64,000 nucleotides of DNA, from positions 62,001 through 126,000 of the forward strand of contig NZ_AUMH01000004.1 in the NCBI RefSeq assembly GCF_000430585.1. The letters are read 5' to 3'. The DNA is from Alicyclobacillus herbarius DSM 13609 (GTDB taxonomy: Bacteria > Bacillota > Bacilli > Alicyclobacillales > Alicyclobacillaceae). Below the pieces are notes generated by a model. The model was not told the origin of the DNA. It saw nothing but the letters and a program-made list of their open reading frames with translations, and did no database searches. This document shows, one piece after another, positions 36,418 to 37,289 of this stretch. The position numbers and the translations under genes are program-made. The stretch's first letter is position 1. Every line of letters begins with the position of its first letter.

Positions 36418-36470
36418 GGTTCGAGTCTCCTTTTTCACCTTAGGACACAAAGTTTCTCCCAGGACAATAT

Positions 36471-36485
36471 TTTTCCCTAAGGAAA
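36471..36485. promoter_or_regulatory. MntR-like operator of mntH
   Basis: TTTTCCCTAAGGAAA matches the B. subtilis MntR box (TTTGCCTTAAGGAAA, from memory) at 13 of 15 positions. It lies about 8-22 bases downstream of the predicted transcription start. A weaker similar stretch (TTTCACCTTAGGACA) lies some 35 bases further into the leader. No DtxR/MntR gene is in the window. Confidence 0.6.
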
Positions 36486-36499
36486 CTTTTCTCGAGATC

Positions 36500-36592: not shown

Positions 36593-36621
36593 TTGTCATG
36601 ACCGTGCGACTGACGTATGAT
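36593..36621 (+). promoter_or_regulatory. Promoter of the PAP2 phosphatase gene
   Basis: TTGTCA (36593-36598), a 17-base spacer and TATGAT (36616-36621) form a good sigma-A promoter. The predicted start near 36628 lies just upstream of the triple repeat. Confidence 0.65.
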
Positions 36622-36639
36622 ACCGTCGAGAACCGCGAT

Positions 36640-36670
36640 TTTACACGAATTTACACGAACTTTACACGAA
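36640..36670 (+). repeat. Three tandem TTTACACGAA repeats in the PAP2 leader
   Basis: Copies lie at 36640-36649, 36650-36659 and 36661-36670, periods of 10 and 11 bases, directly before the SD GAGGAG. TTTACA repeats at about one helical turn resemble the PhoP-box pattern of Bacillus (TTHACA about every 11 bp). Their position between the predicted start site and the SD would suit repression or an RNA role. Confidence 0.75.
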
Positions 36671-36683
36671 CGAGGAGAAAAAC

Positions 36684-37289
36684 ATGAACCCGTTTGACGA
36701 CAAAGTCTTTCACGCCATTAACCAATACGCAGGACATACCCCCGGCCTGGACCAGTTTATGTACTTCATCGCCCAGTATTCCTTAGAAGTCTACGCGATA
36801 TTGTTCATCATCGCCTGGTTTACCCTGCCCCGCCGCGAAGAGGCGCAGCGGCACGCACTCGTCGTGTCGGTCGCCGGTGGCGTCATCGCGCTCATTATTA
36901 ACCTCATCATCGGTTCCATCTGGTACCGACCGCGCCCATTCGTCGCCATGCCCCACCAGGTCAACCACATCGCCCCGCACGCGGACGATGCGTCTTTCCC
37001 GAGCGACCACGCCTCTGGTGCGTTCGGGTTCACCAGCGGATCGTTCGGCCGCGCCGCCCGCTGGGTCGGTTGGACCTTCCTGGTTCTGGCCATCCTTGTC
37101 ATGATTGCTCGCGTCTATGTGGGTGATCACTGGCCGACCGATGTCTTGGCGGGATTGGTCGTTGGTACCTTCTCTGGTCGCATTGCGTGGTTGTTTGATA
37201 AGCCTCTGGGGGTTATCACCCGCATTCTGATGCGCATTTTTCACCAGGGACGGTACTCCCGTCAAGGCCGATACGCGCACCGCTATTGA
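36684..37289 (+). CDS. PAP2 family phosphatase (undecaprenyl-diphosphatase-like)
   Basis: This 201-residue membrane enzyme carries the three PAP2 motifs: IWYRPRPF (Lys/Arg-x6-RP type), FPSDHASGAFG and RVYVGDHWPTDVLAG, the latter two bearing the catalytic histidines. Membrane helices flank the motifs, and the tail is basic. It resembles BcrC-type enzymes that recycle undecaprenyl diphosphate for cell-wall synthesis, but other lipid phosphates are possible. GAGGAG precedes the ATG. It is monocistronic, with its own promoter, unusual leader repeats and a terminator. Confidence 0.9.
   Translation: MNPFDDKVFHAINQYAGHTPGLDQFMYFIAQYSLEVYAILFIIAWFTLPRREEAQRHALVVSVAGGVIALIINLIIGSIWYRPRPFVAMPHQVNHIAPHADDASFPSDHASGAFGFTSGSFGRAARWVGWTFLVLAILVMIARVYVGDHWPTDVLAGLVVGTFSGRIAWLFDKPLGVITRILMRIFHQGRYSRQGRYAHRY

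Follow-up and report, generated by a model that had tools for sequence, protein, structure and literature searches.

Three exact tandem copies of the unit TTTACACGAA, with periods of 10 and 11 bases, lie between the promoter and the Shine-Dalgarno sequence of a gene for a PAP2-family phosphatase in Alicyclobacillus herbarius DSM 13609, as the initial annotation had proposed; they start at 36640, 36650 and 36661. Our best reading, to which we give a probability of about 45%, is that this array is a PhoP-type operator, particular to the species and so placed as to block the PAP2 gene. The repeats resemble boxes found ahead of the phoP-like, pstB and phosphate symporter genes of the same genome, they follow a conserved promoter, and they lack the layout seen where such boxes would activate transcription. 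Positions refer to the window, the whole 64,000-nucleotide stretch analyzed (G000:C4:62001-126000 in a genome of 3.31 Mb), and are collected in Table 1.

According to the mechanism that we propose, the array would be an operator of three head-to-tail TTTACA half-sites, placed on one face of the helix within the first 45 or so transcribed bases. When phosphate is plentiful, the housekeeping promoter just upstream would drive the PAP2 gene. Under phosphate shortage, phosphorylated PhoP (PhoP~P) would occupy the tandem half-sites and interfere with promoter clearance or early elongation, such that less phosphatase would be made. We infer the start site of transcription, the binding of PhoP, its repressive sign and the phosphate response of the PAP2 gene.

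Table 1. Features of the PAP2 locus (window positions)
Feature	Position	Strand	Basis
mntH (Nramp Mn2+ transporter), divergent from the PAP2 gene, predicted start codon	35065..36501	-	reading frame, profiles
Sigma-A-type promoter of the PAP2 gene, TTGTCA-17-TATGAT (-10 hexamer TATGAT at 36616-36621)	36593..36621	+	motif reading; 3/3 genus genomes
Repeat copy 1, TTTACACGAA (half-site TTTACA 36640-36645)	36640..36649	+	exact match
Repeat copy 2, TTTACACGAA (half-site TTTACA 36650-36655), 10 bases past copy 1	36650..36659	+	exact match
Repeat copy 3, TTTACACGAA (half-site TTTACA 36661-36666), 11 bases past copy 2	36661..36670	+	exact match
Shine-Dalgarno sequence GAGGAG	36672..36677	+	direct reading
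PAP2 gene, 201 aa, undecaprenyl-diphosphate-phosphatase-like (ATG at 36684)	36684..37289	+	reading frame, Pfam/NCBIfam profiles

The gene and its repeat array

The PAP2 identity of the protein comes from Pfam (PF01569, 69 bits). The predicted enzyme shares with the BcrC-type undecaprenyl-diphosphate phosphatases both its family and its best NCBIfam match, undecaprenyl-diphosphate phosphatase, but it stays under the curated cut-off (88.6 bits versus 229); the sole solved structure found by sequence was LpxE (6ebu, E 2.3e-7). On the side of the divergent mntH gene, a near-palindrome is located at 36470-36489 (TTTTTCCCTAAGGAAACTTT; read on the minus strand, AAAGTTTCCTTAGGGAAAAA). It is present in both sister species too, and may be an MntR box, which it resembles.

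The promoter, of the form AAATCGCTTGTCA-N17-TATNATACC, was found in all three genomes of the genus searched. Counted from the last base of its -10 hexamer, the array spans bases 19 to 49, and it ends just before GAGGAG. With a transcription start near 36628, where we would place it, the array would cover about +13 to +43. A scan of the window for TTTACACGAA with at most one mismatch gave six matches, the three exact ones being the array copies, and Tandem Repeats Finder scored the array at 54 to 57. Its spacers, CGAA and CGAAC, are near-identical. Such arrays are rare in the genome: three successive exact 9-mers at periods of 9 to 13 bases were found at two places, the array and L212:3246-3298, in 484 kb. 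This sample comprised the window, a deliberately chosen pst stretch of 20 kb and twenty further stretches of that length. When up to three mismatches are allowed, the 21-base dimer TTTACACGAA-N-TTTACACGAA occurs once genome-wide, as does its reversed control. Three viral contigs (L220, L221 and L222) contain an exact two-copy repeat of TTTACACGAAC, but their sequence shows no relation to that of the window, and we rejected these contigs as relatives of the array.

Likeness to PhoP boxes

TTHACA is the PhoP half-site consensus of Bacillus subtilis, and the sites at phosphate genes in the present data agree with it. The array likewise consists of direct TTHACA half-sites in gene orientation, with spacings of 10 and 11 bases, and its copies 2 and 3 form a TTTACA-N5-TTTACA dyad at the 11-base period described for the direct repeats of PhoP boxes (PMC4415409). 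In the whole genome, this exact dyad is present at three places, one each ahead of the phoP-like, pstB and PAP2 genes and always in gene orientation, compared with 0.15 expected from the frequency of TTTACA, whether the chosen stretches are included or excluded; the reversed-pattern control nevertheless gave two rows versus three, so that the chance level of dyads is not negligible here. The exact TTHACA triplet (N4-6) is found in this genome only as the window array, with no row in the reversed control. Each of the two sister species has one exact dyad, before its phoP-like gene, and the five dyad rows of the genus are therefore divided among the phoP-like gene (3), pstB (1) and the window PAP2 gene (1).

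Across six genomes, the exact dyad gave 19 rows, versus 7 for the reversed control. Going by the neighbor genes, which we identified by eye in the reading frames, five rows belong to PAP2 leaders (window, G004, G025, and G009 twice), three to the phoP-like gene (G000, G001 and G002), one to pstB (G000), two to a phosphate symporter and two, overlapping at one place, to uppP of G025. The others fall inside long reading frames (three), beside a cation-ATPase-like frame (two, overlapping at one place) and beside a MerR-like regulator (one). The window dyad is near-identical to boxes of the same family at phoP-like, pst and symporter genes: its 17-mer matches the pstS box of a relative (L053, L069) at 16 of 17 positions, and both the symporter box of the same genome, TTTACACAAACTTAACA, and the phoP box of the sister species at 15 of 17. 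As the only other exact dyads of the genome are those of the phoP-like gene and pstB, the likeness to a PhoP box suggested in the initial annotation holds. The array nevertheless departs from such boxes in its first spacing of 10, its near-identical spacers, its place downstream of the promoter, the lack of TANNNT at a distance of 9 bp from a half-site, and its absence from the sister species.

A cognate PhoP/PhoR-type system is present in the same genome, which carries the motif at its Pho genes: the regulator-kinase-pst locus encodes an OmpR-type regulator, a PnpS/PhoR-like kinase, PstB and PstS. PstB and PstS exceed their NCBIfam cut-offs, and the kinase reaches 378.5 bits with PnpS, below the cut-off of 400. 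For the regulator, the best NCBIfam models are MtrA (251.8), YycF (244.6) and PhoB (225.1), all below cut-off, and we call it phoP-like because it sits beside the kinase and the pst genes. The symporters of this genome and of G019 score 313 and 321 with the phosphate:H+ symporter model (cut-off 610). The UppP of G025 is accepted by Pfam BacA and stays below the NCBIfam cut-offs, and UptA is the top match for the L029 DedA-type protein (105 versus a cut-off of 250). These are the proteins that were scanned with profiles; the remaining gene names in relatives were given by eye, and pstS was named from TIGR02136 matches below cut-off. Elsewhere in the genome, a PhoP-like array with two mismatches (L043:1501-1528, G000:C27:10675-10702) is located upstream of a gene that is TarI-like by eye (wall teichoic acid).

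Position relative to the promoter

Of 20 sites of the family that lie at phosphate genes or uppP, 19 share a layout made up of a register position of the array, a gap of exactly 9 bp and then TANNNT, in a test that allowed up to six registers (chance of about 3.5% per site, from 0.0059 per base), on a spacing first spotted on part of the same 20 sites. All 20 are exact dyads, at phoP-like (3), pstB (2), phoR-like (1), symporter (5), uppP (1) and pstS (8) genes; the eight pstS sites are those with an exact dyad among 30 pst-type loci, the other 22 having none. Some register positions are degenerate, for example TCCGCC ahead of the genome's own phoP-like gene, and the sole miss is the symporter of G019. 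In the window array, no TANNNT follows at 9 bp after any copy, within up to six registers, and we reject a PhoP-activated promoter for the PAP2 gene on this ground. The same layout is absent from the six PAP2 leaders of a UptA-linked clade (0/6) and from the site on contig C129 of G009.

Because the activation layout is missing and the array lies downstream of a conserved promoter, we place it in a blocking position: if the array works, the PAP2 gene should be repressed. The downstream position, which the initial annotation had called unusual for a PhoP-like box, is thus real, and it argues for blocking. In B. subtilis, promoters whose PhoP sites lie within coding sequence can reportedly be repressed by PhoP, and tagA and tagD are reported to be repressed by PhoP~P (PMC13403408). 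There, as proposed here, PhoP~P acts negatively on an envelope gene, although tagA and tagD are teichoic-acid genes, whereas the target in the window is a PAP2 phosphatase, for which we infer repression.

Conservation in the genus and in the family

The genus sample comprises the source species, Alicyclobacillus shizuokensis (G001) and A. kakegawensis (G002). The PAP2 leaders of both sister species retain the promoter and contain neither the repeats nor the dyad; at the place of the repeats they carry CCTGCACGCCCTGGCACATTCGCAGGATAAGGAG (with CAT as first bases in A. kakegawensis), and the distance from the -10 hexamer to the ATG is 55 bases in both, compared with 62 in the window. The putative operator is present in one of three genus genomes, that of the source species, and conservation in related leaders, a check put forward in the initial annotation, does not come out in its favor.

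Among 61 PAP2-type leaders (170 bases scanned; three of them, from named records, duplicate other loci of the set), seven contain the exact dyad, namely that of the window and six from two other genera. In a tree of 51 of these rows (the named records L032-L035, three of which are copies of included loci, and the distant L095-L099 and L101 were omitted), the window PAP2 belongs to a clade of 10 (support 100/98), in which eight members have mntH as neighbor and one has the dyad. The other six dyad-bearing genes fall in a separate clade and all adjoin a DedA-type gene (UptA/DedA-linked). Inheritance of the array from the PAP2 dyads of other genera is rejected by this topology, and the window array would represent either a separate gain or a site lost in the sisters, three species being too few to give the direction.

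In six of seven DedA/UptA-PAP2 leaders (L015, L021, L029, L031, L076 and L078, but not L030), an inverted repeat GTTCA(C/G/T)...TGAAC starts 29 bases ahead of the TTTACA dyad. No convincing promoter was found upstream in the dyad-bearing UptA-linked leaders; a -35 element could be provided by the first TTTACA itself in L021 and L078.

Alternative explanations

The array may be a recent, selectively neutral tandem repeat in a fast-changing leader, with a unit that contains TTTACA by chance and with PhoP unbound or ineffective. We consider this quite possible and only a little less likely than the operator. Both sister species lack the repeats, which leaves room for a chance tandem repeat, and a second tandem array (L212) exists in the sampled part of the genome; intragenic PhoB sites, mostly inert and unconserved, are moreover described as common in E. 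coli (PMC10294691). However, a random unit of 10 to 11 bases would hold TTTACA on either strand in about 0.3% of cases (from 1.5e-4 per base), and the gene class that bears the array has recurring dyads in two other genera. In addition, the leader is only 7 bases longer than in the sisters, so that the array is not simply two inserted copies.

The spacers bear on the same question. A search of 41 genomes of the family for the exact triplet yielded 27 rows, which by hand count fall at 20 places, versus 14 rows in the reversed control. Seven of the 19 places outside the window have identical or near-identical spacers, as in the window array, and none of the seven lies at a recognizable phosphate gene; 12 have differing spacers, and six of these are at phosphate genes, uppP or PAP2 (genes named by eye, two of them confirmed by profile; G019:C51 is borderline in spacer class). 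By its form, the window array falls in the tandem class; by its half-site sequence, its orientation and its gene, it falls in the Pho class. This conflict keeps our confidence in a PhoP operator below one half. Other points counted against the operator are its lack in the sisters, the first period of 10 instead of 11, the non-empty reversed controls, and the top models of the regulator, which are MtrA and YycF, not PhoB. Thus, as regards the phosphate-linked roadblock control of a lipid phosphatase proposed in the initial annotation, the PhoP likeness and the blocking position stand, and the expected conservation does not.

Three other repeats were noted in relatives. One (L170, G004:C1:1698029-1698084) has five full tandem copies of TTTACACACC and a partial sixth, among neighbors not recognized as phosphate genes, and can usefully serve as a neutral reference against which to set the window array. 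Another (L182, G009:C129:88033-88060) is an exact TTTACA triplet with differing spacers, a -10-like TAATAT 10 bp further on, and no clear downstream gene. The last (L183, G003:C179:18238-18265) is a TTHACA triplet near a gene that is PiT phosphate permease-like by eye, in the opposite orientation, and counts among the 12 places with differing spacers.

A different regulator, WalR (YycF), may be envisaged, with a site on the minus strand from which WalR~P would repress PAP2 as a cell-wall lipid-carrier enzyme. Indeed, TGTAAA-N5-TGTAAA on the minus strand at 36666-36650 (copies 2-3) fits the published WalR consensus TGTWAH-N5-TGTWAH exactly (PMC9210968), iseA of B. subtilis is reported to be repressed by WalR~P, and the PhoR-PhoP system is called closely related to that of WalR (PMC7299342). 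Given that the phosphate-locus regulator scores higher with YycF than with PhoB, PhoP and WalR motifs may be hard to distinguish here. However, the WalR pattern gives seven rows at six places in this genome (10 rows for the reversed control), and three of the five places other than PAP2 belong to phosphate genes (phoP-like, pstB and symporter), the remaining two being C5:152456 and C8:40020. Moreover, at the tested phosphate-gene sites the motif reads TTTACA in gene orientation, as it does in the window. We therefore regard a WalR site as improbable.

The repeats might also act at the level of the RNA, as unstructured sequence next to the Shine-Dalgarno that serves as a ribosome standby site or is bound by a protein. 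They do abut the Shine-Dalgarno and are predicted to be mostly unpaired, but they are missing in both sisters, the leader folds no better than shuffled sequences (z 0.27), and Rfam has no family above gathering score, its lone match being a microRNA far below it. We reject an RNA structure or riboswitch on the last two results; the RNA element raised in the initial annotation is left unsupported, and we give very little credence to a translational role. The PhoP-type operator remains our best reading.

Undecaprenyl phosphate recycling

Undecaprenyl phosphate ferries peptidoglycan and wall polymers across the membrane. In G025, an array with exact TTTACA at four of its six register positions is followed after 9 bp by TAGGAT and precedes uppP (BacA; L133/L180, G025:C1:3675324-3675351, minus strand): it is a candidate activation-type PhoP layout at an undecaprenyl-diphosphate phosphatase gene. 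Widespread Pho control of uppP is rejected, since the exact dyad was found in 0 of 30 uppP leaders examined, a set that leaves out further matches, including C16:88010 of this genome, and to which the G025 array does not belong. Taken with this uppP array, the dyads at PAP2 genes beside UptA/DedA-like genes hint that phosphate control touches undecaprenyl phosphate recycling, and we find them more interesting than the window array alone. In its strong form, the proposal would be that PhoP of the Alicyclobacillaceae directly controls this recycling, activating uppP in at least one species and blocking PAP2 phosphatases from sites that overlap or follow their promoters, with two or more independent origins of the PAP2 sites, one in the UptA-linked clade and one at the MntH-linked window gene; we judge this unlikely.

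Among the matches listed in a literature search, no title or opening of an abstract speaks of an undecaprenyl-diphosphate phosphatase as controlled by PhoP. An E. coli pst mutant is reported to have lower yeiU/lpxT and ydhJ mRNA, with a 1.57-fold decrease for yeiU/lpxT, which encodes a PAP2 undecaprenyl-pyrophosphate phosphatase; this case differs from ours in being Gram-negative and in that no PhoB site is given at the gene (PMC2648988). PhoP of Riemerella is described as binding a dedA promoter (PMC9603813), and in a published Corynebacterium network uppP appears with no known regulator (PMC7923171).

If the proposed control is true, the array would be an example of an operator gained naturally between closely related species, and phosphate starvation would act directly on the enzymes that renew undecaprenyl phosphate, linking nutrient sensing with the lipid carrier used in wall synthesis.
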